Assembly (NCBI RefSeq): GCF_018283675.1 | Contig: NZ_JAGVRK010000001.1 | Location: 1,178,001 to 1,242,000 of the forward strand | DNA length: 64,000 nucleotides | Direction: 5' to 3' | From: Metabacillus flavus | Lineage (GTDB): Bacteria; Bacillota; Bacilli; Bacillales; Bacillaceae | Shown: in pieces, positions 11,735 to 63,741 of the stretch | Layout of the letters: the number at the start of each line of letters is the position of its first letter | Position numbering within the stretch: position 1 is the first letter of the stretch | Made by a program: the position numbers and the translations under genes | Notes under the pieces: generated by a model | What the model saw: the letters and a program-made list of their open reading frames with translations, nothing else | Told to the model about the DNA's origin: nothing | The model's database searches: none

Positions 11735-11877
11735 CAGGGTAACTAATGGGGAGAAACAGACAAACAATGGAACGGACAAATTCTGGTCTTGATCGGCTAA
11801 AAAAGGGGGAGAAACAGCTAAAATGTAAAGCAGAACGGCTAGATTAAATGCACGGCCGGACAAATAAATTAAGATTC
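11735..11877. repeat. Degenerate 21-bp tandem array
   Basis: Five copies of an 8-base core, C[GA]G[AC][CT]A[AG]A, start at 11773, 11794, 11815, 11836 and 11857, each exactly 21 bases after the last; two poorer copies start near 11735 and 11757. The other 13 bases of each unit differ. The array fills the space between the malR terminator and the terminator of the dehydrogenase gene. Confidence 0.7.
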
Positions 11878-11887
11878 CAGGCAACAA

Positions 11888-11921
11888 AAAATTCTCCCGC
11901 TGCTCAGAGCGGAAGAATTTT
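11888..11921 (-). terminator. Terminator of the leftward short-chain dehydrogenase gene
   Basis: The stem AAAATTCTcCCGCT/AGCGGaAGAATTTT with a six-base loop has a T-run on the minus strand, just after the stop codon at 11930. Confidence 0.85.
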
Positions 11922-11929
11922 CTAAGTTT

Positions 11930-12799
11930 TTATCCGTTTACAACTTTCCCGCCATTTACATGCAGGACTTGTCCCGTTACATAAGTAGAGTCTGCGCTTG
12001 CAAGGTATACATAGCTTGGTGCCAATTCTTCAGGCTGTCCTGGTCTTTGCATTGGAGTATCCGCACCGAACTCGGCAACTTTATCTTCCGGGAAAGTGGA
12101 TGGAATCAGCGGCGTCCATATTGGACCCGGTGCAACGCCGTTCACGCGGATCCCTTTTTTTATCAGGTTACCTGATAAGGATCGGGTAAAGGAAGTGATG
12201 GCCCCTTTAGTTGCGGAATAGTCGATTAGCCCTGGGGAGCCGGCATATGCTGTAATCGATGTTGTATTTATGATGGAGCTGCCTTCCTTCAGATGCGGAA
12301 GGGCTGCCTTTGTTAGATGAAACATAGAGAAAATGTTTGTTTTGAAGGTCCGCTCAAGCTGCCCGGCTGTAATGTCTTCGAAGTTTTCCTGTGGATGCTG
12401 TTCTGCTGCATTGTTTACGAGAATATCGAGTTTGCCGAACTTGACGATTGTCTCTCGGACAACCTGTTTGCAAAACCCTTCATCGCCTATATCTCCGGCA
12501 ATCAGAAAGCAGCTGCGGCCTTCTTTCTCCACTAATCGCTTCGTTTCGGATGCATCATCATGTTCATTTAAGTAAGCGATGGTGACGTCAGCGCCTTCTC
12601 TTGCAAAAAAGACGGCCACGGCGCGTCCGATTCCGCTGTCTCCGCCAGTAATAATAGCTGTTTTTCCTTCCAGCTTCCCGCTGCCTTTATAGAAATCACC
12701 TGCAAATTTGGGTGCTGGATTCATCAAGGTTTCCTGCCCCGGCTGTACATCCTGTTCCTGTGCCGGCATCGTTTGCTTTTGTTCATTTTGTCCGCTCAT
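11930..12799 (-). CDS. Short-chain dehydrogenase/reductase, YhxC/YdaD (Gsp39) type
   Basis: 289 residues. An N-terminal hydrophilic tail of about 40 residues (MSGQNEQKQTMPAQEQD) is typical of the YdaD/YhxC/YhdF group of general-stress dehydrogenases. The Rossmann fold follows: TGGDSGIGRA (NAD(P) binding), LVNNAAEQ, the catalytic Ser at NTTSITAY and YSATKGA with the YxxxK pair. It reduces or oxidises an unknown alcohol/carbonyl in the cytoplasm. The start at 12799 has GGAGTGG at the right distance; a longer frame upstream is not supported. Confidence 0.9.
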   Translation of the reverse strand: MSGQNEQKQTMPAQEQDVQPGQETLMNPAPKFAGDFYKGSGKLEGKTAIITGGDSGIGRAVAVFFAREGADVTIAYLNEHDDASETKRLVEKEGRSCFLIAGDIGDEGFCKQVVRETIVKFGKLDILVNNAAEQHPQENFEDITAGQLERTFKTNIFSMFHLTKAALPHLKEGSSIINTTSITAYAGSPGLIDYSATKGAITSFTRSLSGNLIKKGIRVNGVAPGPIWTPLIPSTFPEDKVAEFGADTPMQRPGQPEELAPSYVYLASADSTYVTGQVLHVNGGKVVNG

Positions 12800-12885
12800 A
12801 TTTTCCACTCCTGACTTATCATTAATTCGCTCATACTTGATGATTCCCCAAGAATGGAAAATAAAACATACTAGGACTGACAAAA

Positions 12886-12912
12886 ACAGAACCGGCAAAT
12901 GCCGGCTCTGTT
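12886..12912 (-). terminator. Terminator of the yitJ-metH operon
   Basis: On the minus strand AGAGCCGGC pairs with GCCGGTTCT around a four-base loop, followed by GTTTTTGT. The stem starts at the metH stop codon. Confidence 0.9.
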
Positions 12913-15900
12913 ACATCACATTGAAATATCTTGCATCGGGATGGGAGACGACGATCGCTGAAACGGACGCTTCCGGTTCCATCATAAATCCGTCTGTCAA
13001 CTCTATGCCTATCGTTTCAGGGCGTATCAGTCTGAATAGTTTAGCCTGATCATCTAGATCCGGGCAGGCAGGATAGCCGAATGAGTAGCGCTGTCCCTGA
13101 TACTTGGCGGAGAACCGCTGATCCATTGTAAAGTCCGTTGCGTCCGGGAACCCCCATCGGTCACGGATGAGCTGATGAGTGCGCTCAGCGAGGCCCTCTG
13201 CCATTTCAAGCGCCAGTGCCTGGACCGCATGGCTCTTCAGGTAATCACCCTGTTCTTTAAAGCGATTTGCTGCTTCGCGAACATTTCGTCCCGCTGTAAC
13301 GGCAAAGAAGGATACATAATCCTCACCCTCGCTTTCTTCGCGGACGTAGTCCGATATACAGCGGTTTGGAAGCTTGGCCTGACGCGGGAAATCAAAGGTT
13401 TCGAGCGGAGCGCCGACTCCTTCAGAAAAAATGTGGAGCTTGTTGCCTTCGCTTTGAGCCCTGAAAAACTGGTACACAAATGCGGGTTCAAACCAATTTT
13501 CTTTTTTTCCCTGAACAATCAGGTCTTCAATCAGCTGCTTCAGCGCCAGCGTTTTTTCATCTTTACTCGCAATAAGTTCTTTAATCTTTCCTTTTACCCC
13601 CAGATGGTGGCCAAGGAGCATCTGCATGTTAATGTACGGCAGGATATGCTCAAGACTGATGGATTTTACCACATGCCGTTTACAGTCGGCCGGCTTGAGA
13701 AGCTCCGCCGCCGTAATGGTTTTTCTTTTTTCCAGAAGTGTTGCCACTGCGGAGGATGGCTCTCTTGTAACCGTAATGGTTTCCGGAATTTCTTTTTTAA
13801 CAAATTGAGCAGGGTCTTGTCTCAGTCTGTTAGCCAGAGAGAGGCCATCCATGGCATCTTTTGCATACAGCACGGTACCTTGATATTCAGGAGAAATTTT
13901 ATAATCTGTGAATTTTCTTGATAGAGCCGCACCACCGACCATAATCGGAGTTTCAATTTCAGCCTGCTTTAAATCCTGTGCCGTCAAAACCATTTGCTGG
14001 GCTGATTTAACAAGAAGGCCGGACAATCCGATTACATCTGGTTTTTCCCTGCGGACGGCTTCGATGATTTCCTGCGGTGTGACTTTGATACCGAGATCGA
14101 CAACTCGAAACCCGTTATTGCTTAAAATAATCTCCACTAGATTTTTGCCGATATCATGAACATCGCCTTTTACGGTGGCCAGCAGGATTTTTCCTTTCCC
14201 GCTGTCATCCTTGATTTCCATATGCGGCTCAAGGTAGGAGACGGACGTCTTCATAACCTCTGCACTTTGCAGAACCTCGGCGACAATGAGCTGATTCGTG
14301 TTAAACAGCACGCCAACCTCCGCCATTCCATCCATTAGCGGGCCGTTAATAATATCAAGTGGGTCCGGATATTTCTGAAGAGCTTTTTCCAAATCCGGAA
14401 TCAGTCCTTCTTTTGTTCCTTCTACTACATAAGTTGCAAGCCGCTCTTCAAGTGTCAGTGTTTCAGCCGGTTTTTTGACCGTTTTTTTCTTTTCTCTGTA
14501 AAAATTTGTGAACAAAGCCAGGTTTTCATCGGTTGTATGGAAAAGCAGGTCTTCAGCCATTTTAATTTCCTCTGCCGGAATGCTTGCGAAACGCTCCAGT
14601 TTTTCTGTATTCACGATCGCGTAGTCGAGACCTGCCTTTGTACAGTAATACAGGTAGACGGCGTTTAATATTTCTCTTCCGACCGGAGGGAGACCGAAAG
14701 ATACGTTGCTGACACCTAGGATGGTCAAACAATCAGGCAATTCTTTTTTTATCAGTTCAAGGCCCTTAACTGTCTCAGCAGCTGAGCCGATGTATTGTTC
14801 ATCCCCTGTTCCAACTGGGAAAACAAGCGGATCGAAAATGATGTCAGAGGATTTCAATCCATGCTTGTTCACTAGCAGGTCGTGAGAACGTTTGGCGATT
14901 TCAAGTTTCTTTTCTGCTGTTGTAGCCATGCCAATCTCATCAATTGTACCAACTACAATGGCAGCGCCGTATTTTTTAACGAGAGGAAGGACGGCTTCAA
15001 ACCGTTCCTCTCCATCCTCAAGATTGATGGAGTTAATGATGGCTTTCCCCTGTGAATATTTCAAAGCCGTCTCAATGACGATATGATCGGTTGAATCGAT
15101 TACGAGCGGCACTTTAACCTTCTTCGTGATTTCCTGGATAAACTGCTCCATATCCTCGTTTTCTTCCCTGTCCGGATCAGCGAGACAAATATCAATGACG
15201 TGGGCTCCATTTTTTACTTGAAGACGGGCAATTTCAGCGGCCTCTTCAAATTTCTGTTCGGAGATGAGGCGCTTAAATTTACGTGAACCGATCACATTTG
15301 TTCGTTCTCCAACAAACAGCGGTCTCATGGAATCGTCATAAACGAGCGGCTCAATCCCGGAAACGGTATGCTGCTTAAGCTGCTCCCTTACTGGACGAGG
15401 CGGAAGGTCTTTAACGGCTTCAGCTAATGCTTCAATATGTGCGGGGGTTGTTCCGCAGCAGCCTCCGACAATGTTCAGCCAGCCTTTTTCCGCAAATCCC
15501 CTGATTTTAGCTGCAAGGGTGGAAGGGGATTCGTGATAATTGCCTTCTTCATCAGGAAGCCCGGCGTTTGGGTAACAGCTGACCGCCGTTCCCGCCATAT
15601 CCGAGAGAGTACGAATGTGATCGGTCATGAATTCCGGTCCTGTTGCACAGTTCAGACCGACAGAGATTGGATTCATGTGCTCTAATGAGATATAGAAGGA
15701 ATCGATTGTCTGGCCGGCAAGCGTGGTACCCATTGGTTCGATGGTTCCGGATACCATCAGCGGAATCTCCTTGCCTGTTTTCGCAAAGGCTTCTTTAATT
15801 CCAAGAAAGCCCGCTTTCACATTGAGCATATCCTGGCTCGTTTCAAGCAAAAGCAAATCTGAGCCGCCGTCAATCAGTCCCCGCGCCTGTTCTTCATAAT

Positions 15901-16321
15901 TGTCGATTAACCGGTCAAACGTCGTGCCTCCTGTGACGGATAATGTTTTGGTCGTCGGTCCCATGGAGCCGGCGACATACCGCGGACGCTCATCTGTCGA
16001 AAAAGCTTCCGCAGCCTGTTTGGCAAGCTGTGCCCCCTTGAAATTGATTTCATAGGCAAGGTGCCCGAGCTCGTATTCATCTAAAACAATGGCGGTTCCG
16101 CCGAAGGTATTCGTTTCAATAATATCGGCCCCAGCCTGCAAATACGTTTCATGGATTCGGGAAATGACGTCAGGCATGGTTAAGGTCAAATATTCATTAC
16201 ACCCGTCATAAGCCTCTCCGCCAAAATCATCTGCCGTTAAATTAGCGTCTTGAATCATCGTTCCCATTGCGCCGTCTAGTACTAGAATTCTTTTTGCGAT
16301 TTGTTCACGAATGCTGGACAT
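12911..16321 (-). CDS. metH: Cobalamin-dependent methionine synthase
   Basis: 1136 residues, the usual Bacillus length. Domains in order: homocysteine S-methyltransferase (1-310, zinc ligands in GLNCATGP near 224 and GGCCGTTP near 289); pterin-binding methyl-THF domain (about 330-590, starting [14 protein letters not shown]); cobalamin cap and B12 domain (about 620-860, with the B12 ligand motif DVHDIGKN near 718); and the S-adenosylmethionine reactivation domain at the C-terminus ([11 protein letters not shown] region). It methylates homocysteine with methyl-THF via cob(I)alamin. ATG behind AAAGGGAG. The start overlaps the end of yitJ by 17 bases, so translation is coupled; both lie downstream of one SAM riboswitch. 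Confidence 0.97.
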
Positions 16322-18161
16322 GTGAAAACTCCCTTTCTGAACGCTGCTTCTCTTTTTCCCGGATGTACTCTGCCAGTTCGACTGAGTATTCGTATTTTAA
16401 AAACGGCGTAATCAGATAAATGCCGTTAAATAAGTCAAATGCCGCATCAATCAGGTCTTTTGCAATCGCAATGCCTTCTTTTTTTGATTGAATAGGATCC
16501 CCGCCCGCTTTTGCCATCGTTTCACGAATGCTGTCAGAAAGCTTGATGCCTGGGATTTCATGATGAATAAATTCTGCGTTCCGGCTGCTTGTCAGCGGCA
16601 TGATGCCGATATACAGCGGTGCAGTCAGATGCTTGACCGCTTCATGCACCTCTTCCATCTGCTGGATGGAATAAATCGGCTGAGAGATAAAATAATCCGC
16701 TCCGCAGGCAATTTTTTTCTCCAGGCGTTCGGCCGCTTTATTTAAATGCCGGACATTTGGATTGAATGCTCCTGCCACAGTGAAATTCGTTTTGCCGCCA
16801 AGTGCTTTTCCTGAGTAGGATAACCCTTCATTGAACTGCTTGATCAGTGAAATCAAGTCGAAGGAGGACAGGTCATACACGGAGGTAGCACCTGGGAAAT
16901 CGCCAATTTTAGAGGGATCACCTGTAATCGCCAGCACGTCCGTCAATCCAAGGGAATGAAGTCCCATTAGATGAGATTGAAGGCCAATCAAATTCCGGTC
17001 GCGGCAGGTGAGGTGAATAAGCGGCCTCATATCATGTTTTTCCTTCAGCTGGGTTCCGACAGCTGCATTGCTTACTCTCGGTGAAGCGAGAGAGTTGTCA
17101 GCAAGCGTGATGCTGTCAATACCGGTCTTTTTCAGTTCTTCGGCCCCTTTAAAAAACTTTTCCAAACCGAGCGTTTTTGGGGGATCCAGTTCGACAATAA
17201 CGGACCTGCGCTCCTTAACAATTTGGTGGAGCGGGGGATAGGCAGGCTCGAGCCGTTCATGAACGGTGACGGGCTTTCGCTGCTTTACGGATTTTTCCTT
17301 GATTGGTGCAAGTCCTCTTAATGCATCAGCCATTGCCTTTATGTGTTTAGGCGTCGTCCCGCAGCAGCCGCCGATCAGCCTGGCACCTTGATTGCGGAAG
17401 GCTAGGGCGCTCTCTGCAAAGTACCCTTCATCCGATTCATACACAAGTCTTCCTTCTTCAACAGATGGAAGACTGCCATTTGGATAGACAGAGAGAAATG
17501 CTTTTTCAAGCAGCGGAACCTCTTCAAGCGATTCGAGCATGTGATACGGGCCAAGCCGGCAGTTCAGGCCGACAACATCTGCGCCGAGTGCTTCTAAGTC
17601 CTTTAAGCCTTTTTCAAGAGGTGTCCCATCCTGCAGCACACCGGTTTCATGCAGCGACACATTGGCGACAATCGGCTTATTGGTTTCTTTTCTCGCTATC
17701 TCAAGAATTGTTTTCAGCTCTTCCAAATCGTAAAATGTTTCGAGCAGAAGTCCATCGATGTCTTCATTAAGGAGTACATAAAGCTGCTCGCGGAAGCTGC
17801 GTTTCAGCTCATCCAGCGTGTGAGAGCTTTTTTTGAAAGCACGGACTCCGCCCATTGTGGCAAGAACATAAGCCTGGCTGCCTGCAGCTTTTCTCGCAAG
17901 CCGTGCCGCTTTCGAATTGATAGCCCGGATATCATCTTCCAGTCCATAGCGGGACAGTTTAATATGATTTCCGCCATATGTGTTCGTTTGAATAACCCGT
18001 GCACCAGCGTTAATGTATGCCTCATGAATGCTCTGGACCTGATCAGGGTTTGACAGATTCAACTCTTCAAAACATCGGTCAATGCCATGGGAGTATAAAA
18101 GTGTCCCCATTGCCCCGTCTGCTATTAAAATTTCATTTTGTAAATCTTCTAGAAAGCCCAC
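16305..18161 (-). CDS. yitJ: Bifunctional homocysteine S-methyltransferase / methylenetetrahydrofolate reductase
   Basis: 618 residues, as in B. subtilis YitJ (612). Residues 1-290 are a BHMT-type domain with the zinc cysteines in GLNCRLGP (about 200) and GGCCGTTP (about 265). From about 315 the MetF-like reductase domain follows ([50 protein letters not shown]). It makes methyl-THF for the methionine synthase encoded next and may itself methylate homocysteine. First gene after the SAM riboswitch; the ATG follows AGAGGGGGGATC. Confidence 0.96.
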
Positions 18162-18183
18162 CTGCTGATCCCCCCTCTAAAAA

Positions 18184-18213
18184 ATAAAAAGCCTTCTTGT
18201 AGAAGAAGGCTTT
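18184..18213 (-). terminator. Intrinsic terminator of the SAM-riboswitch expression platform
   Basis: On the minus strand AAAGCCTTCTTC pairs with GAAGGCTTT, followed by TTATTTT, between the aptamer and the yitJ start codon. Confidence 0.88.
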
Positions 18214-18229
18214 AACATTCGGACTTCTT

Positions 18230-18338
18230 CTTATCTTCCAAGCACAATGCTTAGCTGGATTTAGCACCTTGGCACGCGCACTTGCATGACCGGTTGCTGA
18301 AGCGTCATCGGGCCAGTCCCTCAGCTTCTCTTGATAAG
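18230..18338 (-). ncRNA. SAM-I riboswitch (S-box) for yitJ-metH
   Basis: The minus-strand sequence has the conserved S-box parts in order: CTTATCAAGAG at the 5' side of P1, AGCTGAGGGACTGGCCC, GATGACGCTTCAGCAACC, AAGGTGCTAAATCCAGC, and GGAAGATAAG closing P1. S-adenosylmethionine binding stabilises the aptamer and lets the downstream terminator form, shutting off methionine synthesis (established for the family). Confidence 0.96.
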
Positions 18339-18373
18339 AACGATATGGAGTTGTTTAAAAATAGATTACTCCC

Positions 18374-18402: not shown

Positions 18403-18479
18403 GGGGGAAGGGGAGGTTTTTTACAATGGTACACTCATTTTCTAGGCTGAGAGCCTTCGTGAATGGCTGTTTATCAATT

Positions 18480-18619
18480 TATGCGTACACTTTCCAGTTT
18501 TATGATGAATTTTTGACGTTTATGATGAATTTTTCCAACTTATGATGAATTTTAGAGATATATGATGAATTTTAGAGATATATGATGAAAATTTAGAATT
18601 TATGCTGAATTGGAGGACA
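18480..18619. repeat. Degenerate 20-bp tandem array (TTATGATGAA units)
   Basis: Six units in exact 20-bp phase start at 18500, 18520, 18540, 18560, 18580 and 18600, each opening with (T/A)TATGATGAA(TTT) or a one-base variant; a poorer seventh starts at 18480. The second half of each unit varies. It lies in the 325-bp space between the yitJ leader and the yajQ terminator, which holds no gene. Confidence 0.85.
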
Positions 18620-18624
18620 GTTCC

Positions 18625-19155: not shown

Positions 19156-19191
19156 GTCATTCCTCCCGCGTTTTCATACTTGCACTTTACT

Positions 19192-19681
19192 CCACTAACC
19201 TTAAGCGAGATTCCCCTGCTGAAGGAAGTTTCACTTTATCCCGCACTAACGGGCAGTAGGGGACCGAGCCTTGGACTGGTTCACCTGCCAAATATGGAGC
19301 GTTCAATCTCATAACTGCCCGTAAGTGCCCGATTCTGTTCCACTAACCTTCAGCGAACCCCCCCGCTGAAGGAAGTTTCACTTTATCCCGCACTAACGGG
19401 CAGTAGGGGACCGAGCCTTGGACTGGTTCACCTACCAAATATGGAGCGTTCAATCTCATAACTGCCCGTAAGTGCCCGATTCTGTTCCACTAACCTTCAG
19501 CGAACCCCCCACTGAAGGAAGTTTCACTTTATCCCGCACTAACGGGCAGTAGGGGACCGAGCCTTGGACTGGTTCACCTGCCAAATATGGAGCGTTCAAT
19601 CTCATAACTGCCCGTAAGTGCCCGATTCTGTTCCACTAACCTTCAGCGAACCCCCCCGCTGAAGGAAGTTTCACTTTATCC
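19192..19681. repeat. 147-bp tandem repeat, 3.3 copies
   Basis: Near-identical units beginning CCACTAACCTT start at 19192, 19340, 19487 and 19633 (steps of 148, 147 and 146); the last stops after about 49 bases. Each unit has a short hairpin (TTCAGCG/CGCTGAA around a C-run) and a longer inverted pair ACGGGCAGT/ACTGCCCGT about 60 bases apart. The steps differ only through small indels. No reading frame persists. It fills the divergent space between yajQ and cvfB up to the cvfB promoter region. Confidence 0.95.
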
Positions 19682-29342: not shown

Positions 29343-29651
29343 ATGGAAGAAGCATTAAAAGAAAATCTAATGGGCGCGCTTGAACAAGTCGTCGATCCTG
29401 AACTTGGAATCGACATCGTCAACCTCGGCCTCGTATACGACGTCGAGATGGATGAAGCCGGTGCAACCACAGTTACCATGACCCTGACATCCATGGGCTG
29501 CCCGCTCGCAGGAACAATTGTAGATCAAGTGAAAATCGCACTAAGCGATATCCCGGAAGTGAAAGAAACAGAAGTAAACATCGTCTGGAATCCGCCATGG
29601 TCCAAAGACCGCATGTCACGCTATGCGAAAATTGCGCTGGGCATTACCTGA
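29343..29651 (+). CDS. yitW: MIP18/SufT-type metal-sulfur cluster assembly protein (YitW)
   Basis: 102 residues: LMGALEQVVDPELGIDIVNLGLVYDVEMDE, the conserved Cys in TSMGCPLAG, and VNIVWNPPWSKDRMS. The DUF59/MIP18 fold supports iron-sulfur cluster insertion (family knowledge). GAAGGAGTG precedes the ATG. A terminator follows 12 bases after the stop. Confidence 0.95.
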   Translation: MEEALKENLMGALEQVVDPELGIDIVNLGLVYDVEMDEAGATTVTMTLTSMGCPLAGTIVDQVKIALSDIPEVKETEVNIVWNPPWSKDRMSRYAKIALGIT

Positions 29652-29662
29652 TTGTGAACAAG

Positions 29663-29696
29663 CACCGCTTGCCTTATAGGCAGGCGGTGTTTTTAT
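29663..29696 (+). terminator. Terminator of yitW
   Basis: CACCGCTTGCC pairs with GGCAGGCGGTG (one G-U type mismatch) and TTTTT follows. Confidence 0.88.
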
Positions 29697-29733
29697 GTTG
29701 GAACAGGGGATGCTGGAGATGCTGCTGAGCGTG

Positions 29734-29980
29734 TACATCGGACATTGTGGATGGGATATCGCACACTCAGTCCGAGATATCGGCCACTCGCAGGTATATC
29801 GGACACCTACCCCGTATATCGGACTTCTAACTGGCGGTCCCGTATCCCGCCAAAGTTGGCCCGCAAAACCTCGAACTTGGCCCGTATCCCGCCAAAGTTG
29901 ACCCGCAAAACCTCGGACTTGGCCCGTATCCCGCCAAAGTTGGCCCGCAAAACCTCGGACTTGGCCCGTATCCACTTTAA
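29734..29980. repeat. Two-part degenerate array: about 20-bp units, then 42-bp (2 x 21) repeats
   Basis: Five copies of a TATATCGGAC-like core start near 29734, 29755, 29776, 29795 and 29815 (steps 21, 21, 19, 20), with unrelated second halves. Then an almost exact 42-bp repeat starts at 29839, 29881, 29923 and 29965 (last copy partial). Each 42-mer is two related 21-mers that open with CCCG and close with TTGG. TCGGACTT is shared by both parts, so they look like one lineage. It fills the space between the yitW terminator and the argC promoter region. No gene is supported here. Confidence 0.92.
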
Positions 29981-41990: not shown

Positions 41991-42175
41991 GGCTCTGTTA
42001 AACTTGGCTGTTGATTGCAGCTAGCAGGCGTTCGCTTATCCTTGGGCGGGCGGTGAGCCTCCTCGCCGCTTTGCGCCTGCGGGGTCTCACCTGGCCCGCT
42101 GCTCCCGCTGGAGGCTCACGCCTTCCGCTCCAATCAACAGGTGTTAATAAATCAACTTAATGCTTTAACAAAGCC
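41991..42175 (+). mobile_element. MITE copy A, 185 bp, 8-bp target duplication
   Basis: Terminal inverted repeats GGCTCTGTTAAA (41991-42002) and TTTAACAAAGCC (42164-42175). The flanks carry the exact direct repeat AAAATAAT (41983-41990 and 42176-42183). The inside holds a GC-rich core (about 42029-42146; GGGCGGGCGGTGAGCC, GCGCCTGCGGGGTCTCACC, GCCTTCCGCTCCAATCAAC) that can fold extensively. No transposase is encoded. Confidence 0.92.
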
Positions 42176-48229: not shown

Positions 48230-48528
48230 TGATAAGTGGAAAAAAGACCAAAAAAAAGTGCTTCCTCTCTTAGAATTTAGATTGGTTTTGGCTGATTTAC
48301 GCTGCAGGATGCTTGCTTTCCGCGGGGCGGGCGGTGAGCCTCCGCGGCGCAAGCGCCTGTGGGGTCTCACCTGTCCCGCTGCTCCCGCAGGAGTCGCGCA
48401 CCTTCCGCTCCAATCAGCCTAACCAGAATTGTTCTAAGTACCTATATAAAATTACACCCATGCGAATGCTTTCACAACGTCAAGGGGTTTCGATCATTTT
48501 CTATCAGTAAGACTTTTTAGACAGTCTC
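48230..48528 (+). mobile_element. MITE-like element copy C (family 2)
   Basis: Contains the GC-rich core (about 48311-48424) inside the family 2 arms GATTGGTTTTGGCTGATTT and CCAATCAGCCTAACC. The right end GACTTTTTAGACAGTCTC (48511-48528) is a family 2 terminal repeat. The left end has diverged and is placed only roughly. It lies with two terminators in the 457-bp gene-free space between the kgtP-like gene and trpS. Confidence 0.7.
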
Positions 48529-49627: not shown

Positions 49628-49855
49628 AAAAAAAGGCCCACTCATCCCTGAAGAAGGGACGAATGAACCGTGGTGCCACCCTGATTGCTCTCCGATCCAA
49701 CGGAAAGCCGCTTAAAATCCTTTAACGCAGGACATACGGCATTGCCTAATTCTATTTCGGCATGCGGCTCAAAAGTCCATTCCACGAAGTTCAATGCCTG
49801 ATTTCCAGCAGCCTCAGGCTCTCTGCAAATGAATAATCCGTGTACTACTCTTTAT
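49628..49855 (-). ncRNA. T-box leader of trpS
   Basis: On the minus strand AGGGTGGCACCACGG (about 49668-49682) is the T-box core that binds the uncharged tRNA acceptor end. It is followed by a terminator stem CGTCCCTTCTTCAGGGATG and a T-run ending at about 49628. Further upstream is a long hairpin with ...CGTGGAATGGACTTTTGAGC..., which offers UGG codons as tryptophan specifier. Uncharged tRNA-Trp promotes read-through. Confidence 0.95.
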
Positions 49856-49882
49856 CATAGCCGGTACATTTAACTGATACAT

Positions 49883-55477: not shown

Positions 55478-55478
55478 A

Positions 55479-56423
55479 ATGGCAAAAGAAAAATTGCTCG
55501 AAGTTAGAAATTTAAAGCAGTATTTCAATAAAGGAAAATCCAACGAAGTAAGAGCAGTTGATAACGTCTCATTTGATATTTTCAAAGGGGAAACACTTGG
55601 ACTGGTTGGGGAATCCGGATGCGGTAAATCCACAACAGGCCGTACAATCATTCGCCTGTACGATGCTACAGGCGGAGAAGTATTATTTGACGGAGAGAAC
55701 GTTCATGGGAAAAAGAATAAATCCCAGCTGAAGAAGTTCAACCGTAAAATGCAAATGATCTTCCAGGATCCTTATGCTTCTCTAAATCCCAGACTGAAAG
55801 TATCAGAAATCATTGCAGAAGGCATTGATATTCATGGGCTTGCTAAATCATCCAAAGAACGTATGGACCGAGTAGTTGAGCTATTGGAAACAGTCGGATT
55901 AAACCGGGAGCATGCGAACCGTTATCCGCATGAATTCAGCGGCGGACAGCGGCAGCGGATTGGAATTGCACGTGCTCTTGCAGTGGATCCTGAATTCATC
56001 ATCGCTGATGAGCCAATCTCTGCATTGGATGTATCCATTCAAGCTCAAGTTGTAAATCTGCTTAAAAAGCTTCAAAAAGAAAAAGGCTTAACGTTTTTAT
56101 TCATCGCCCATGATTTATCCATGGTGAAATATATTAGTGACCGTATTGGGGTTATGTACTACGGAAAATTAGTAGAACTTGCGGAAGCGGATGAGCTTTA
56201 TAAAAATCCAATTCACCCTTATACACAAGCGCTATTATCTGCAATCCCTCTGCCCGATCCCGATTATGAGCGCGCACGTGTAAGAAAGGCGTATGAGCCT
56301 TCTAAACACAAATTGCAGCCCGGTGAAGAGATGGAGCTTCGCGAAGTAAAACCAGGACACTTCGTAATGTGCTCAAATGAAGAGTTCACTCAATATCAAA
56401 AACAATATGCTGCTACTATTTAA
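55479..56423 (+). CDS. oppF: Oligopeptide ABC transporter ATPase OppF
   Basis: 314 residues from the ATG at 55479, one base after the oppD stop. Walker A GESGCGKS, signature FSGGQRQR, Walker B FIIADEPISALD and AHDLS. A longer frame from 55326 lies inside oppD and is rejected. The stop codon TAA (56421-56423) is part of the 8-bp target duplication of MITE copy B. Confidence 0.96.
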   Translation: MAKEKLLEVRNLKQYFNKGKSNEVRAVDNVSFDIFKGETLGLVGESGCGKSTTGRTIIRLYDATGGEVLFDGENVHGKKNKSQLKKFNRKMQMIFQDPYASLNPRLKVSEIIAEGIDIHGLAKSSKERMDRVVELLETVGLNREHANRYPHEFSGGQRQRIGIARALAVDPEFIIADEPISALDVSIQAQVVNLLKKLQKEKGLTFLFIAHDLSMVKYISDRIGVMYYGKLVELAEADELYKNPIHPYTQALLSAIPLPDPDYERARVRKAYEPSKHKLQPGEEMELREVKPGHFVMCSNEEFTQYQKQYAATI

Positions 56424-56428
56424 TAGAA

Positions 56429-56611
56429 GGCTCTGTTAAAGCCTGATGTTGATTTTTAACACCTGTTGATTGGAGTGGAAGGCGCGAGACTCCTGCGGGA
56501 GCAGCGGGACAGGTGAGACCCCGCAGGCGCAAAGCGGCGAGGAGGCTCACCGCCCGCCCCGCGGAAAGCGAGCGCCTGCAACGGAAATCAACAGCCAAGT
56601 TTAACAGAGCC
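56429..56611 (-). mobile_element. MITE copy B, 183 bp, 8-bp target duplication
   Basis: Terminal inverted repeats GGCTCTGTTAAA (56429-56440) and TTTAACAGAGCC (56600-56611) are perfect. Exact direct repeats TAATAGAA flank them (56421-56428 and 56612-56619). Inside is the same GC-rich core as copy A, in the opposite orientation. It occupies most of the gene-free space after oppF and separates oppF from its terminator. Confidence 0.95.
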
Positions 56612-56621
56612 TAATAGAAAG

Positions 56622-58033: not shown

Positions 58034-58044
58034 CTGCAAAAAGT

Positions 58045-58270: not shown

Positions 58271-58450
58271 TTATTTGCGTTTAACTGGATTCCAGCCTTT
58301 TTGCGTTTTGGAGGATTGTTCATAAAATGCATTTTTTGTTTTGCCTCCGAACAATCCGGATCCGATTCCATTCGCTAAAACACCCATTGTAGCAGTGAGC
58401 CCAATTACAAAAATGGCGAAAAGGGCGAAATCAGTAAAATAGCTGATCAA
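58271..58450 (-). CDS. Small membrane protein of unknown function
   Basis: 59 residues with one or two hydrophobic segments (YFTDFALFAIFVIGLTATMGVLA) and a basic tail ending WNPVKRK. The TTG at 58450 is chosen: AAGGAG lies nine bases upstream, whereas the ATG at 58480 has no ribosome site and overlaps a TATAAT-like box that may be the promoter. I do not recognise a family. Its stop codon touches element E. Confidence 0.65.
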   Translation of the reverse strand: MISYFTDFALFAIFVIGLTATMGVLANGIGSGLFGGKTKNAFYEQSSKTQKGWNPVKRK

Positions 58451-58588
58451 ACCAATCAACTCCTTGTTCCTATTATACATAAAAAGTATTCAATTTTCAG
58501 TTAATTTAACTAAATACCCTCTATCATGTTTATGCAAAAGCAAAATGGGTAAATTACCAATACAACTACATTTAACAGGAGAGAAAGC

Positions 58589-59167
58589 ATGAATTGGTAC
58601 GAGAAGCTGAGTCAGTATTTTCCGATTGAGGAAATGAAATCACGTGATCATATAGAAGGTCTTTTAAAAGACAGAGGCGACATTTATTACAAGGATGAAG
58701 GACCGAAACATGTGCTTATGTATGCGGAGCTGGATGATTTTCTTTTTATAGATTACATATATGTCTCCAAAGATGCGCGCGGTGAAGGTCTTGGACATAA
58801 GCTTATTGCAAAGCTGAAAGAGAAAAACAAACCCATTATTTTAGAGGTTGAGCCTGTTGATGATTCCGATCAGGATACGGCAAAACGTCTTAAATTTTAC
58901 CAAAGGGAAGGTTTTCATCATGCAAGTTCTATAGGGTATTCGAGAAGATCGTTAGCAACGAATGAAGTGAATCATATGGAAATTCTCTATTGGTCCCCAA
59001 ATGACCGTCCGGAATCTGAAATTTTTTCTGCAATGAAGGAAACCTACAAGCACATTCATACGTATAAGGATAAAGAGTGGTACGGCCGTTCGTATGAAGA
59101 TGTGAAGAAAGTACTGAAGATCCGCAGCGAAGAAGAAGCGACTAATATTTTCGATGAGAAAAACTAA
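58589..59167 (+). CDS. yjbC: GNAT acetyltransferase YjbC
   Basis: 192 residues, as in B. subtilis YjbC. DYIYVSKDARGEGLGHKLIAKL is the acetyl-CoA loop (RGxGxG type), and LKFYQREGFHHASSIGYSRRSL follows. The gene lies directly before spx, as in B. subtilis, where the two share a transcript. Substrate unknown. Confidence 0.92.
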   Translation: MNWYEKLSQYFPIEEMKSRDHIEGLLKDRGDIYYKDEGPKHVLMYAELDDFLFIDYIYVSKDARGEGLGHKLIAKLKEKNKPIILEVEPVDDSDQDTAKRLKFYQREGFHHASSIGYSRRSLATNEVNHMEILYWSPNDRPESEIFSAMKETYKHIHTYKDKEWYGRSYEDVKKVLKIRSEEEATNIFDEKN

Positions 59168-59319
59168 TTGAGAATGGCTCTGTGAATGATACGCCTGAAG
59201 TTAGTAAGCCTGTGCCCTGAATAGTACGTTAATGAAGTTGTCAGAATGTTAAACTAATATGATGAATACTGATTTATTGGGAATTGTAACGAATTCGTCA
59301 AACTTTTGCGGAAAAGATA

Positions 59320-59348
59320 TTCACTTACTTACTTTTTTATAGTATAAT
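59320..59348 (+). promoter_or_regulatory. SigA promoter of spx
   Basis: TTCACT (59320-59325), 17 bases, TATAAT (59343-59348), about 60 bases before the spx start codon. No clear PerR or YodB operator is visible. Confidence 0.7.
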
Positions 59349-59414
59349 GAGCAATAGATATTACTTGTTTAAAGTAATTTTATTTTAAACTACGTACAGA
59401 GGAGTGAAAGTTCC

Positions 59415-59813
59415 ATGGTAACCTTATATACATCACCAAGCTGTACTTCATGTAGAAAAGCAAAGGCGTGGCTGGAAGAGCATGATATTCCATATACAGA
59501 AAGAAACATTCTTTCCGATACAATGTCTATCAATGAAATCAAAGAAATTTTGAGGATGACAGAAGACGGAACAGATGAGATCATTTCCACGCGGTCTAAG
59601 ATTTTCCAAAAACTAAATGTTAATCTTGAGAGCATGCCTCTTCAAGACTTATATCAGCTGATTCAGAATCATCCTGGACTGCTTAGAAGACCAATCATGA
59701 TTGATGAAAAACGCCTTCAAGTAGGCTACAATGAAGATGAAATTCGCCGCTTTCTTCCTAGAAAAGTACGGACTTATCAGCTGCGTGAAGCACAGCGCCT
59801 AGTAAATGAATAA
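59415..59813 (+). CDS. spxA: Global redox regulator Spx
   Basis: 132 residues. The redox switch CxxC is at Cys10 and Cys13 ([11 protein letters not shown]). The ArsC-like fold, [29 protein letters not shown] and the C-terminal tail QRLVNE recognised by the ClpXP adaptor are present. Spx binds the RNA polymerase alpha subunit and turns on thiol-stress genes. mecA, an adaptor of the same proteolysis system, lies 1 kb away. Confidence 0.97.
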
Positions 59814-59822
59814 ATCATTGAT

Positions 59823-59853
59823 AAAAGCCTGCCATTAAAAATGGGAGGCTTTT
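59823..59853. terminator. Bidirectional terminator between spx and the TerC gene
   Basis: AAAAGCCTgCCAT/ATGGgAGGCTTTT with T-runs on both strands; it overlaps the end of the leftward gene. Confidence 0.9.
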
Positions 59854-60516
59854 TTACATGCTTGTTCTCATTTTTTTCATCAGAATCCCGCTTAAAACAA
59901 AGATGAGTACAGTAAAGAAGGGCAGACCCTCAAGGAATAGTGGTTTATTGGCCAGAAATTGAAGTTGATCCTCATGCGAAATCATTTTACCAGCAGTATA
60001 AGCAAGCATTCCTCCTCCGACATAAATTAAATAAGGGAATCGGTCAATCAGCTGCAGAACAAATTTGCTTCCCCAGATAATTACGGGAATAGAGATGAAA
60101 AGTCCCGTGACTACGAGCATGGTGTGTCCGTTTGCTGCCCCTGCAACGGCTATAACGTTATCCAGCCCCATTAGGACATCCGCTGCAACAATTGTTCTTA
60201 CCGCCTTCCACAAACTCCCGTGACTTTTTATGTTCTCATTTTCCTCCTCTTTTCCAGCCATTAAGCCGAAAGAAATATACAAAAGGAATATCCCGCCTGC
60301 CAGCTGGAGATAAGGGATTGTCAGAAGATAAACAGCAACCGTCGTGAGAGCGGTTCTAAGTGTAATGGCAAGCAGCGTACCAATAATAATTGCCTTTTGC
60401 CTTTGCTTTTCTGGAAGCTTCCTGCTGGCCATAGCAATAACAATGGCATTGTCTCCTCCAAGGATCAAATCAATGCCAATAATCATTAATAATGAAATCA
60501 GAAACTCCTGCTCCAT
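59854..60516 (-). CDS. yjbE: TerC-family membrane protein (YjbE)
   Basis: 220 residues with seven spans. IIGIDLILGGDNAIVIAMASRKLP and AADVLMGLDNVIAVAGAANGH hold the paired Asp/Asn residues thought to bind metal in TerC proteins. TerC proteins export manganese or help metalate secreted enzymes (family knowledge). The ATG at 60516 is chosen to match B. subtilis YjbE length; an earlier in-frame start at 60540 is less likely. Confidence 0.92.
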   Translation of the reverse strand: MEQEFLISLLMIIGIDLILGGDNAIVIAMASRKLPEKQRQKAIIIGTLLAITLRTALTTVAVYLLTIPYLQLAGGIFLLYISFGLMAGKEEENENIKSHGSLWKAVRTIVAADVLMGLDNVIAVAGAANGHTMLVVTGLFISIPVIIWGSKFVLQLIDRFPYLIYVGGGMLAYTAGKMISHEDQLQFLANKPLFLEGLPFFTVLIFVLSGILMKKMRTSM

Positions 60517-60827
60517 CCAATACCCCCGTTTGCTTCGCATTAAAGGTTCGTGCTTGTACCAAATATATGAAAAGCAGGCTCCAATATGCCTCTTCGTAGG
60601 TTAATAACTGTTTTCGTTCTTTTCAGGGTTTTTTTATTTCATTTATGTCCGATTTATCATAAAATAGGAGTACAAGATTCTCTAAGCTAAGGTTGACTAC
60701 TATGAGGGTGTTGTGGTAAGCGAAAAGGCGGTTAAAAAGACAGGCTTTGGGGTAAAGTGTAGGAAAGTGCAACTATCGGGGGTTTAGTTGTCCCTTCAAC
60801 ATCAAAAAAAGAAGGGAAGTGTAATCC

Positions 60828-61484
60828 ATGGAAATCGAACGAATTAATGAGCATACCGTGAAATTTTACATTTCATATGGCGATATAGAAGAGCGCGGCT
60901 TTGACCGGGATGAAATCTGGTACAACCGTGAACGTAGCGAAGAACTTTTCTGGGAAATGATGGATGAGGTGCACGAGGAAGAAGACTTTATGATGGAAGG
61001 ACCACTCTGGATCCAGGTTCAGGCAATGGACAAAGGTCTGGAAGTTGTGGTCACTAGGGCACAGATGTCGAAGGATGGACAGAAGCTCGAACTGCCGATC
61101 AGTGATGATAAGTATCACGAAATTCCCGTTGATGAAAACATTGATAGCTTAATGGATGAGCATTTCTCCAAATCCCCTGCTGAAGGCGAGGAACAGCCTC
61201 CGCAGCTTGAATATGTTATTCACTTCGGTGATTTTGAGGATCTCATCTCCTTAGCAAAAACAAATCTATCCGGATTTTCAAATAGCCTTTTTGCGCTGAA
61301 CAATCAATATTATTTGTATGCTGAATTTACCGAGGAGCAAGCTGCCGAGGAAATGGATAATGTACTCAGCATTATTTCGGAGTATGGAAGCCAATCCAAG
61401 GTTACGGTTCACAGGCTTGAAGAGTACGGAAAGAAAGTAATGGACGAACATGCTTTGCATACACTGCGAAAGCATTTTGATTAA
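60828..61484 (+). CDS. mecA: Adaptor protein MecA
   Basis: 218 residues. N-terminal substrate-binding domain (MEIERINEHTVKFYISYGDIEERGFDRDEIWYNRERSEELFWEMMDEV), acidic linker (about 100-125) and C-terminal ClpC-binding domain (YVIHFGDFEDLISLAKTNLSGFSNSLFALNNQYYL). MecA delivers ComK and other proteins to ClpCP and so restrains competence. GAAGGGAAG precedes the ATG. The 287-bp upstream space holds one small hairpin (60771-60792, CAACTA/TAGTTG) and nothing else I can name. Confidence 0.96.
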   Translation: MEIERINEHTVKFYISYGDIEERGFDRDEIWYNRERSEELFWEMMDEVHEEEDFMMEGPLWIQVQAMDKGLEVVVTRAQMSKDGQKLELPISDDKYHEIPVDENIDSLMDEHFSKSPAEGEEQPPQLEYVIHFGDFEDLISLAKTNLSGFSNSLFALNNQYYLYAEFTEEQAAEEMDNVLSIISEYGSQSKVTVHRLEEYGKKVMDEHALHTLRKHFD

Positions 61485-61492
61485 ACTTTTCG

Positions 61493-61527
61493 GAGCCGAT
61501 TTCAAATGGAATCGGTTCTTTTTTTTT
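61493..61527 (+). terminator. Terminator of mecA
   Basis: GAGCCGATT/AATCGGTTC (one G-U pair) followed by nine T residues. Confidence 0.9.
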
Positions 61528-61664
61528 GAATTTTTCCAGGGCATGATAAGTAGGCTATAATAAAGCCATATCATATTTTCAAATCTGGTATGATTATGAA
61601 TGAAACTTTTAGGGAATGTAATTCGTACTATATTTTAAGCTGCAGAAAAGTCAGGTGATAGCGG

Positions 61665-63179
61665 ATGAAAAATTTTATACAAGTCATTATTTTTTCTTTA
61701 TTTGTTACAGGGGTTATTCTTTTAACGAAGAATTATTGGGGAGATTGGATTTTAGCTGCATTGAGCATCATTTTTACACTTTCCATCGTTTTTATCGGCT
61801 TTGTCATTTTTATGGAAAACCGAAAACCCAATCAGACCTTAACATGGCTGATCGTCCTCGGCGCATTTCCGATTGTCGGTTTTTTATTTTATCTGCTTTT
61901 TGGACGAAATGTCAGAAAAAGAAGGCTATTTGAAAAGAAAGCGCTTATCGATCAGCAAGTGTATTTGCAAATAGAAGGAGATCATAAGGATTATGAAGAA
62001 CGGGCAGCACAAATGGGAGACCACCAGAAGCTCATGTTCAAGCTTGCTCACAATCTGAGTCACAGTCCTGTTTCTTTTGCGTCAGAAACATCCATCTTAA
62101 CGAATGGGGATGAAAAGTTTCCAGCTATTCTAAAGGAAATTAAAGAAGCCAAAAAGTACATTCATTTAGAGTATTATATAGTCCGTCATGATGAAATCGG
62201 TCTTCAGCTTCAGGACGCTTTAATTGAAAAAGCCCGTGAAGGGGTCAAAATCAGGTTTTTATATGATGCAGTAGGAAGCTGGAAGCTTTCCAAAGGATAC
62301 ATTAGCAAAATGCACCGGGCAGGAATTGAAATGGTGCCATTTCTTCCGGTAACCCTTCCTTTCCTAAGCAATAAGATTAACTTCAGGAACCATCGTAAAA
62401 TTATTATTATTGACGGTAAAATTGGATTTATGGGCGGCCTAAACGTCGGAGATGAGTATTTAGGAAAGGTCGACTTCTTTGGCTTTTGGCGTGATACACA
62501 CCTGATGGTAAAGGGAGAAGAGGTGCGGACGCTGCACATGATTTTCCTTCAGGACTGGTATTATATGACCGGCAAGGAGCTTGATACAGAAACCTATCTT
62601 AAAGCAGACCCAGCAGATTTCCCTGAGGGCAACGGCGGTGTTCAGATGATAGCCGGAGGGCCTGATAATAAGTGGGAAAACATCAAAAATTTATTTTTCT
62701 CGATGATTGTCTCAGCTAAAGACTCCATCTGGATTGCCTCTCCTTATTTCATTCCGGATGAGGACATCCTTTCAGCATTGAAAGTCGCAGCGCTTAGCGG
62801 TGTAGACGTACGCCTCCTTGTTCCGAAAAGACCTGATAAAAAGCTGGTCTTTTACGCATCAAGATCCTATTTTGCTGAACTGATGGAAGCCGGAGCGCAA
62901 ATTTACGAGTATGAAAAAGGATTCATGCACAGCAAGATCGTCATTGTGGACTATGAGCTTGCATCCATTGGTACAGCCAATATGGATATGAGGAGTTTTC
63001 ACTTGAACTTTGAGGTGAATGCATTCTTATACAGAACAGACAGTACGGTCACTCTTGTAGAAGAGTACGAAAAAGACCTGCTGGAATCTAAGAAGCTTGA
63101 TATGGAAGACTTCGTTAAACGGAGCTTTTTCCAGCGTGTTTTCGAATCATTTGCAAGGCTGCTTTCGCCGATGCTTTAA
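61665..63179 (+). CDS. cls: Cardiolipin synthase
   Basis: 504 residues. Two N-terminal membrane spans (about 5-25 and 33-55) precede two phospholipase-D motifs: NFRNHRKIIIIDGKIGFMGGLNVGDEY and FMHSKIVIVDYELASIGTANMDMRS. It joins two phosphatidylglycerol molecules into cardiolipin at the membrane. The ATG follows CAGGTGAT. Position after mecA differs from B. subtilis, where clsA lies elsewhere. Confidence 0.95.
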   Translation: MKNFIQVIIFSLFVTGVILLTKNYWGDWILAALSIIFTLSIVFIGFVIFMENRKPNQTLTWLIVLGAFPIVGFLFYLLFGRNVRKRRLFEKKALIDQQVYLQIEGDHKDYEERAAQMGDHQKLMFKLAHNLSHSPVSFASETSILTNGDEKFPAILKEIKEAKKYIHLEYYIVRHDEIGLQLQDALIEKAREGVKIRFLYDAVGSWKLSKGYISKMHRAGIEMVPFLPVTLPFLSNKINFRNHRKIIIIDGKIGFMGGLNVGDEYLGKVDFFGFWRDTHLMVKGEEVRTLHMIFLQDWYYMTGKELDTETYLKADPADFPEGNGGVQMIAGGPDNKWENIKNLFFSMIVSAKDSIWIASPYFIPDEDILSALKVAALSGVDVRLLVPKRPDKKLVFYASRSYFAELMEAGAQIYEYEKGFMHSKIVIVDYELASIGTANMDMRSFHLNFEVNAFLYRTDSTVTLVEEYEKDLLESKKLDMEDFVKRSFFQRVFESFARLLSPML

Positions 63180-63198
63180 GGTTAGGCATATAGGAAAA

Positions 63199-63426
63199 GA
63201 GGCTTTCAAGAAAGTCATTTTTCGAAGCTCCTTTCGCATCTTTAAATTCGATTAGTTTTGGCAGATTTCCACTGCAGGATGCTCCCTTTCCGCGGGGCGG
63301 GCAGTGAGCATCCGCGGCGCAAGCGCCTGCGGGGTCTCACCTGTCCCGCTGCTCCAGCTGGAGTCTCGCACCTTCCGCTCCAATCAGCCTAACCCATTTT
63401 TGTTTAAAGTACCTATGTAAAAGCCA
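63199..63426 (+). mobile_element. MITE-like element copy D (family 2), right end lost
   Basis: The left end GAGGCTTTCAAGAAAGTC (63199-63216) is a diverged family 2 terminal repeat. The arms and the GC-rich core follow (core about 63289-63385). After GTACCTATGTAAAAGCC the sequence departs from copy E at the hairpin, and no right terminal repeat is found. Part of the 733-bp gene-free space between cls and coiA. Confidence 0.78.
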
Positions 63427-63463
63427 AAACAGCCGGGATGCTTACAAAGCATCCCGGCTGTTT
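63427..63463 (+). terminator. Strong terminator downstream of cls
   Basis: AAACAGCCGGGATGCT/AGCATCCCGGCTGTTT, a perfect 16-bp stem with a five-base loop. It takes the place of the internal hairpin of element E. Confidence 0.9.
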
Positions 63464-63486
63464 CAATTTCAATCGTCCTGGTGGAA

Positions 63487-63741
63487 TATACCACTTCAAT
63501 TGCGGTTCCAGCCAAAAACAGAGCTTTTCCAGCCAAATTGATTATTCCAGCCAAATTGATTATTCCAGCCGATTCACTTCTTTTACCAGCCGTGTTCGCT
63601 TACATTTCAGCCAGTTCAGTCGCGGTTCCAGCCCAAAACAGGGCATTCCAGCCAAACTAATTATTCCAGTTGATTTACTTCTTTTTCCAGACGAAATCGT
63701 CTATTTTTCATCCCCTTCGATTTTTTTGCTTAATTCCAGCC
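63487..63741. repeat. Degenerate 18-21-bp tandem array (TTCCAGCC units)
   Basis: CCAGCC or close variants start at 63508, 63529, 63547, 63565, 63586, 63607, 63628, 63648, 63666, 63687 and 63736, mostly 18-21 bases apart; an older copy is at 63487 and a poor one near 63708. The other 10-14 bases of each unit vary. A higher-order period of 120 bases is visible (63508 against 63628, both preceded by CGGTT or GCGGTT). No reading frame is credible. Confidence 0.85.

Follow-up and report, generated by a model that had tools for sequence, protein, structure and literature searches.

Largely non-coding arrays of 20-21 bp units are linked to one group of NERD-domain proteins

The window, a stretch of 64 kb, carries tandem arrays with a step of 20-21 bp, and arrays of this kind are linked to one group of NERD-domain proteins, a link that is new. 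The arrays are probably DNA landing strips for this group of chromosomal proteins, with a core of its own for each paralog. Sequence comparison demonstrated the adjacency of arrays and genes, the limit to one NERD group, allele swaps, the tracking of the core by the C-terminus and the conservation of the cores, on which this reading is based. Naming the protein group makes the function of the repeats directly testable.

Arrays of the window, their step and their cores

An earlier note on this DNA had described four sites with one array of 20-21 bp units each, part of the unit being kept and part drifting. Such arrays were confirmed at 18.5, 29.7-29.98 and 63.5-63.7 kb, whereas the array at 11.75 kb is weak: it is absent from the lag-scan listing and four regular cores remain. 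In the sister genome G001, the syntenic position carries a long, clean array to which it can be aligned. The 29.7-kb site holds two arrays instead of one (TATATCGGAC and CCCG..TTGG), and the 21-bp step at 63.5 kb is accompanied by steps of 18 and 20 bp. The kept part differs between the four sites because they hold different array families, but it is not unique to its locus, since each core recurs at other loci of this genome or of sister genomes.

Table 1. Arrays of the window and the candidate reader gene of family A (window positions, unless a genome contig is named)
Feature	Position	Strand	Remarks
Degenerate family-B array	11757..11864	+	CGGACAAA/CGGCTAAA cores; neighbouring genes convergent; terminator-like hairpins adjacent
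Family-A array	18500..18609	+	five TTATGATGAA-type cores followed by a final TTATGCTGAA; step 20
Short family-C array	29734..29825	+	core TATATCGGAC
Family-F array	29839..29973	+	42-bp double units CCCGTATCC../CCCGCAAAACC..; TRF period 21 and 42
Family-E array	63506..63692	+	core TTCCAGCC; steps 18-21
A reader candidate gene	G000:C1:3356843-3357808 (outside the window)		own A array beside it

The 18.5-kb array has the terminator of a DUF520 gene on one side and a SAM-riboswitch gene on the other. The family-B array exists in a long version in G001 and G005, and the syntenic counterpart of the family-C array of the 29.7-kb site extends over about 950 bp in G001. At the position syntenic to the 63.5-kb site, G001 has only a short remnant of the family-E array; long family-E arrays lie elsewhere in G001 and G005.

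The arrays are real, tied to the 20-21 bp step and largely non-coding. In 864 kb of three genomes, 10, 8 and 4 non-coding matches were obtained at a lag of 20-21 (and 1, 4 and 3 additional ones inside frames of at least 150 aa), versus 1, 1 and 0 matches over all lags of 11-69 after one first-order shuffle of each of the same stretches. The comparison with shuffled DNA, proposed in the earlier note, thus came out in favour of the arrays. The repeat size of 20-21 nt does not depend on the sequence; several array families occur per genome, each with a short conserved core, and single cores between genes are rare, with 0-3 found for each core in the stretches sampled. A coding function was rejected, as several frames are open simultaneously and none is conserved. 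The open reading frames overlapping the arrays, 29616-29975 (-) and 63438-63776 (+), were regarded as fortuitous; with the 20-bp step present in the 63.5-kb array, no seven-codon frame is kept. Several frames stay open together in some of the long arrays, which was likewise taken as chance.

Family A comprises 12 loci in the window genome (G000) with 5-7 TTATGATGAA-type cores each, and all 57 steps measure 20 or 21 bp; in families B and E 18-bp steps are present beside those of 20-21 bp. Between species the cores stay and the linkers change. In family A, 1/170 core positions changed versus 14/134 in linkers and 116/1035 in flanks, in family G 14/255 versus 24/78 outside the cores, and in family D 11/155 versus 35/291 outside the cores (not significant alone), in pairs that came from array matches, a selection favouring conserved arrays.

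Ordinary minisatellites, that is duplications by slippage or unequal exchange that then drift without function, would explain part of this picture. Block duplication is certain, the long B, E and J arrays having one 18-bp step among 21-bp steps, which gives blocks of about 102 bp, and some arrays differ in length between close relatives. However, no degenerate core was found inside the 12 A arrays (0 steps of 40-42 bp among 57) though the linkers are free, the cores of families A, G and D change less than linkers or flanks, and the arrays are tightly linked to one protein group, so that arrays of this purely passive kind appear very improbable. Slippage alone had been regarded as insufficient before, and the fixed steps and the cores conserved between species agree with this. 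Comparison of the same intergenic spaces in relatives revealed longer and shorter versions of the arrays. No sign was seen of copying in a fixed register of 20-21 bases, also considered earlier: the likeness of A-array linkers across loci was 0.51 at the same position and 0.49 at different positions.

NERD proteins adjoining the arrays

The proteins linked to the arrays have about 320 residues and consist of a NERD nuclease-type domain, a four-cysteine zinc ribbon and a putative HTH-like C-terminus, the latter suggested by the sequence pattern and by Pfam matches below the cut-off. An array was located at most 500 bp upstream of 36/53 NERD genes encoding 300-345 aa versus 34/948 control genes with a minimum length of 200 aa (Fisher p 1.3e-33, a value that is too small because orthologs in congeners were counted separately). 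In 24/37 cases the array edge nearest to the start codon lies 48-123 bp before it. In a tree of 67 NERD proteins, with array labels assigned by eye, 46/51 rows of one group carried an array label and 5/51 did not, whereas the label was found in 0/15 rows of two other NERD clades from the same genome set; the support of the fork holding the 51 rows is not strong (89/69). For the protein aligned on one DNA face that the earlier note had envisaged, this zinc-ribbon group now offers a candidate.

The reader candidates match PF08378 over the curated cut-off. E46, D79, K94 and the four zinc-ribbon cysteines are present in 100% of the 51 proteins and E92 in 96%, and the retention of the active-site residues (E46, D79, E92-x-K94) characterizes them as putatively nuclease-like. 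PADLOC returned partial matches to PDC-M16A and PglW, and the NCBIfam matches (MAD6, PglW, L37ae) were far below the cut-off. A search of the PDB with the A-type protein gave a best E of 0.18. Full-length family members were found in 114/150 genomes sampled from the order (Bacillales) and therefore are a common but undescribed part of the chromosomes. Some genomes are without any member; in one of those examined, G023, an array-like stretch is present, yet family members are lacking at E<=1e-20.

The core appears to follow the C-terminal domain and not the nuclease domain. Over 895 pairs, the partial correlation of core similarity with C-terminal identity was 0.22 when NERD identity was held (0/1000 permutations as high), versus -0.10 with NERD identity when the C-terminus was held; the raw correlation with C-terminal identity was modest (r 0.20). 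Mean core similarity was 0.80 at a protein identity above 0.8, 0.15 at 0.6-0.8 (5 pairs), 0.23 at 0.5-0.6 (11 pairs) and, for identities under 0.5, about 0.035. Taken over all pairs, core similarity and protein identity showed a slightly negative rank correlation (-0.08).

Dispersed arrays, allele swaps and placement

The window genome has three full family members, located beside arrays of families A, G and D respectively, and each of these array families is also dispersed in this genome. The 18.5-kb array thus apparently has a candidate reader here (Table 1). Three of the four window sites hold array families for which no reader gene was found in this genome, and the 11.7-kb array (B) and the C part of the 29.7-kb site look orphaned; B-type NERD genes occur in G001, G005 and G002, and none was found in the window genome. 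For families E, F, H and J, the family members detected in G000-G005 include no reader, despite numerous E arrays (15 matches in G001, 11 in G005).

Of six congeners, only G001 (37 matches) and G005 (11 matches), the two that carry a C-type NERD gene, are rich in family-C arrays; G000 has one match, G002, G003 and G004 have none, and no gene typed C is present in these four. A arrays are intact in G001 and G005 without an A-type gene, G005 has eight G-array matches yet carries another allele at the NERD locus concerned, and D arrays are present in G002, where the gene is I-type. Different cassettes occupy the same locus: A-type in G000 and G002 versus C-type in G001 and G005 (one flank, 93.6%, between G000 and G001; both flanks, 82%, between G002 and G001), and G-type in G001 versus another core in G005 with both flanks 99.7-99.8% identical. 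Array specificity can therefore differ between genomes whose locus flanks are 99.7% identical.

These replacements at fixed loci would also be expected if NERD gene and array formed a mobile element, the dispersed arrays being solo remains or passive copies. Such an element is in line with the absence of the family from some genomes and with arrays flanking the NERD gene on either side: at 8/10 loci compared, these have core words in common, in direct orientation (of the other two, one was inverted and one ambiguous). We regard it as unlikely, because the replacements lie at syntenic loci with intact flanks, as in homologous exchange, and the dispersed A arrays have linkers that were not copied from one another. 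Moreover, the A-type protein had no relatives in 50,697 phage records, one partial match in 72,556 plasmid records and no close relatives in a viral-contig scan. The array pattern itself gave three matches in viral contigs, all short exact repeats or coding-like, and five matches in genome contigs outside the genus, of which the three inspected were one near-exact 23-nt repeat and two coding-like stretches. A phage or plasmid origin of the arrays is thus unsupported by either array or protein searches.

Unit size, number and spacing resemble arrays of the iteron or ParR type, and the arrays could be iterons or centromeres of the plasmid type that the chromosome retains as anti-plasmid decoys. 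No match was obtained in the 72,556 plasmid records for three arrays, one each of families A, G and D, and the adjoining gene encodes a NERD protein and not rep or par, which makes this the least credible of the explanations considered. CRISPR arrays have identical repeats of about 24-47 nt, unique spacers and adjacent cas genes; neither the steps of 20-21 bp nor the neighbouring genes fit them.

A promoter-only role was rejected, as 3/12 A arrays of G000 sit between convergent genes. A bias towards the replication origin or strand was dropped: with the origin assumed at base 1, the ori-proximal half held 25/36 listed places in G000 and 34/47 in G001, but 13/30 in G002. Family D has a terminator-like site on the same strand upstream in 15/19 places and on the other side in 3/19 (orthologs merged by hand); this polarity is weak in family G (14 versus 5 of 24 rows) and absent in family A (5 versus 3 of 16 rows), and was rejected as a general rule.

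The tendency of D arrays to come after a terminator in fixed orientation would suit a role as RNA, in which the arrays act as small RNAs, as sponges or as sites of an RNA-binding protein, maybe the NERD protein, which could act on RNA through its zinc ribbon and nuclease fold; a role as RNA was also suggested by Subirana & Messeguer (2021; PMC8161180). However, A and G arrays occur in both orientations relative to the neighbouring genes, Rfam 15 gave no match over the arrays (window and 12 loci), and the strict steps of 20, 20-21 or 21 bp suit helical phasing better. A function as RNA is thus quite unlikely.

Proposed role and relation to known systems

If the arrays are landing strips, each NERD paralog would read its own core via the C-terminal domain, and protein copies would align on one face of the DNA at sites about two helical turns apart. 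The array upstream of the reader gene would most simply be an autoregulatory operator, and the other arrays of the same core, at up to about a dozen loci, would sit between genes elsewhere. We infer binding, oligomerisation and autoregulation by the NERD proteins from this arrangement. The most likely role of the bound protein is regulation of its own gene together with a nucleoprotein block at intergenic sites; alternatively, it may serve chromosome organisation, or cut DNA by means of the conserved active-site residues.

A wider proposal, which we put forward tentatively and as doubtful, is a hitherto unrecognised chromosomal specificity system with up to 13 nuclease-like paralogs per genome, fast-changing C-terminal readers, own dispersed phased arrays, exchange of specificities at fixed loci by cassettes of gene and operator, and decay of old arrays. 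Its logic would be one of self-marking or conflict, either between the array-bearing chromosome and array-free DNA or between rival alleles. Restriction specificity loci and PRDM9 with its sites follow a similar logic.

Tandem or dispersed asymmetric sites are also known from iteron origins, pSK41-type ParR/parC, phage stoperators and STAR and BOX repeats, the iterons and ParR sites being near 20 bp. These differ in neighbouring genes, step or layout, whereas the arrays described here are chromosomal and have several specificities per genome. Among NERD (PF08378) proteins, the reader candidates share the domain match and the residues E46, D79 and E92-x-K94, and two other NERD clades are without an array by labels read by eye. 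The titles retrieved in a literature search included none that concerns a DNA target of NERD proteins, nor was a NERD partner of 20-21-nt repeats found reported there.

The view of the earlier note that no described family covers the arrays does not hold, since this kind of repeat is already in print. Subirana & Messeguer (2021; PMC8161180) described 'enigmatic' repeats of 20-21 nt in Bacillus, constant in size and variable in sequence, non-coding, largely species-specific and of unknown function, with several families per genome and a short core per family, and proposed a protein polymerising on DNA. The main text of that paper contains no occurrence of 'NERD', 'nuclease', 'promoter' or 'intergenic' and names no partner gene. 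As described there, those repeats share with the window arrays the step of 20-21, the several families with short cores and the non-coding location; to these, the present analysis adds the partner protein group, the position upstream of its genes, the allele swaps, the apparent tracking by the C-terminus and the orphan arrays.

Array families in the window and beyond

Arrays had been proposed in the earlier note at four sites of the window, and this was largely right: all four exist (family A at 18.5 kb, B at 11.75 kb, C and F at 29.7-29.98 kb, E at 63.5 kb), though they are not new in themselves. Tandem Repeats Finder reported three of the four sites, and the 11.75-kb site is a degenerate array. 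In 464 kb of the genome holding the window (G000) and in 200 kb each of the congeners G001 and G002, 7-mers recurring three or more times 17-24 bp apart, frames included, formed 11, 16, and 7 clusters, respectively, versus 0, 0, and 0 after one first-order shuffle per genome. Other step ranges of equal width gave 0-7 clusters. A mismatch-tolerant scan found 10, 8, and 4 non-coding matches at lags 20-21 in the same genomes, with multiples present at 40-42 and 60-63. The kept part of the unit (core) had been described as different at each locus; each core in fact recurs elsewhere.

Features of the window with their coordinates
Feature	Window position	Strand	Detail
SAM riboswitch leader of homocysteine S-methyltransferase/MTHFR gene	18228-18340	-	
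Array	18499-18611		period 20 (Tandem Repeats Finder)
Tandem repeat, 147 bp	19191-19681		3.3 copies, 96%
Array	29839-29973		periods 21 and 42 (Tandem Repeats Finder)
Dispersed repeats, about 180-200 bp	41993-42168, 48274-48451, 56419-56621, 63241-63422		
T-box leader	49652-49867	-	
Array	63527-63570		period 18 (Tandem Repeats Finder)

G000 carries the A pattern seen at 18.5 kb at 12 loci in all (13 matches, two within one array), with six cores per array at 7 loci, five at 4, and seven at 1 (range 5-7). The search demanded ATGATGAA or ATGCTGAA, with steps of 17-24 or 38-44 permitted, and the core letters are therefore fixed by the search. Twenty-nine of the 57 steps measured 20 bp and 28 measured 21 bp, often alternating; none was doubled, and thus no degenerate core lies inside the A arrays. 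A TTATGCTGAA unit closes the array at 7 of the 12 loci. The exact three-core pattern had 32 overlapping matches in G000 and none in 298 other genomes drawn from the order (a draw without the congeners G001-G005); read backwards, it had none among the genomes listed. Family G (core TGTCGATTACGGGCA) steps mostly by 21 bp, with a half unit at the start and often an inverted half-site at the end, and family D mostly by 20 bp. In families B, E, and J the arrays are long and built of blocks of about 102 bp, a single 18-bp step interrupting the 21-bp ones. Single cores between genes, outside arrays, are few.

Several further features were observed near the arrays. The window A array sits upstream of the SAM riboswitch leader. 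The 147-bp tandem repeat is missing from the syntenic position of G001, and the dispersed repeats also match repeats in G001, some inverted. The D arrays (loci L159-L188) often begin with a head like GTCGAA..CGAAAARTCGATAT, and at 7 of 19 merged D places the first core follows 20-40 bp after the end of a terminator-like site on the same strand. Between G001 and G005, family-E arrays (L037, L038, L044, L045) vary in length by steps of about 102 bp and might serve as a typing marker. Mutator-family transposase genes directly adjoin an A array (L140, 1287-2201) and a D array (L159, 1737-2924), and the adjacent array edges share sequence, as if an IS had inserted into both arrays.

NERD genes beside the arrays

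A Pfam scan of 50 of the 69 listed neighbour proteins returned mostly ordinary genes; families A, G, and D each had one array adjoined by the gene of a protein of about 320 aa with the nuclease-type NERD domain (PF08378). PF08378 was present in 18 of 21 genomes searched. An array lay at most 500 bp upstream of 36 of 53 NERD genes encoding 300-345 aa, and on either side of 41 of 54; upstream arrays accompanied 2 of 12 shorter genes, 1 of 4 encoding 345-500 aa, and 0 of 3 above 600 aa. Among control genes encoding 200 aa or more, from sampled stretches of the same and related genomes and including a few NERD genes themselves, 34 of 948 had an upstream array (highest in G004, 4/40).

A 67-sequence tree placed the array-linked proteins in one group of 51 rows (support of its fork 89/69); 46 of these rows carried an array label, two of unclear core. 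No label was carried by the 15 rows of two other NERD clades or by one long-branch row; L275, a row outside the group, has a weak lag-21 match 548 bp downstream in coding-looking DNA. Three NERD-linked cores matched arrays in sampled stretches of G016, one stretch being chosen to include a known match, and likewise three in G004, one via the D search. G000 has only three full members, typed A, G, and D by their adjoining arrays; its fourth PF08378 match (375 aa) is without array. Among the family members found in G000-G005 there was no candidate reader gene for array families E, F, H, and J.

Residues E46, D79, and K94 are kept in 51 of 51 proteins and E92 in 96%; they belong to a PD-(D/E)xK-like site. 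A four-cysteine zinc ribbon is likewise kept in 51 of 51 array-linked proteins. The last 60 residues resemble a helix-turn-helix, for which Pfam matches stayed below cut-off. Only close orthologs had similar cores (mean similarity 0.80 at protein identity >0.8, about 0.035 at <0.5). Over the 895 of 990 pairs with NERD identity <0.8, core similarity correlated with C-terminal identity (r 0.20; partial r 0.22 with NERD identity removed, 0 of 1000 permutations as high); its partial r with NERD identity, C-terminal identity removed, was -0.10.

Conservation, turnover and allele swaps

Substitutions were counted in 12 partly non-independent pairs of orthologous arrays, one of which gave no core positions. 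Cores changed less than the drifting linkers in family A (1/170 versus 14/134 substitutions, p = 6e-5; flanks 116/1035) and family G (14/255 versus 24/78, p = 2e-8; flanks 206/1881), and family D gave p = 0.14 (11/155 versus 35/291; flanks 198/1293); because array matches served to find the pairs, these counts favour conserved arrays. Arrays also undergo loss or replacement: at the 18.5-kb site G001 and G005 have the same flanks around a different array (TTGCTGACT), and three further G000 A arrays are absent or shorter at their syntenic positions in G001.

Genomes can differ at a given locus in both the NERD gene and its array. One such locus has an A-type gene and array in G000 and G002 and a C-type in G001 and G005 (flanks 93.6% between G000 and G001, one flank; 82% between G002 and G001, both). 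At a second (L297, L190), flanks of G001 and G005 are 99.7-99.8% identical and the NERD genes and arrays differ (identity 57% in the NERD domain and 47% in the C-terminus; cores TGCCCGTAATCGACA versus TATTCGACATA). Arrays of the alternative G005 core gave 4 matches in G005, one of them adjoining the gene, and 3 in G001; arrays therefore outlive a swap.

C-array matches numbered 37 in G001, 11 in G005, 1 in G000, and 0 in G002-G004. Where an A-type gene is present, A-array matches numbered 13 (G000) and 10 (G002); without a gene so typed, they numbered 5 each in G001, G003, and G005 and 1 in G004, and intact A arrays are still present in G001 and G005. B-array matches numbered 18 (G001), 16 (G005), and 2 (G002) with a B-type gene, and 2 (G000), 4 (G003), and 0 (G004) without. 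The decayed arrays in the window are those of families B and C, neither of them a type among the full members of G000. For families G and D the fit between array numbers and gene presence is looser.

Distribution and earlier descriptions

Among 150 genomes sampled from the order, 114 contained the full-length family (E<=1e-20), with up to 13 copies. Arrays were visible by eye in samples of G009, G016, G017, G023, G029, G031, G041, and G058. None was seen in the 20-80 kb sampled of the family-free genomes G010, G018, G053, and G054, nor in many 20-kb samples of family-bearing genomes. The link between absence of the family and absence of arrays is therefore weak, and G023 (array visible, family absent) is an exception to it.

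The earlier note knew of no described family covering the arrays; repeats of this kind are already covered by Subirana and Messeguer (2021; PMC8161180). In Bacillus they describe tandem repeats whose size is constant (20-21 or 52 nt) and whose sequence varies; most families are species-specific, a short sequence is conserved within them, and the authors suggest that a polymerising protein or a small RNA is involved. The words "NERD", "nuclease", and "promoter" are absent from the main text of that paper, and a literature search judged by titles and the start of abstracts found no link of such arrays to NERD proteins. As far as the literature was searched, what is new relative to those repeats is the proposed protein partner of the arrays.
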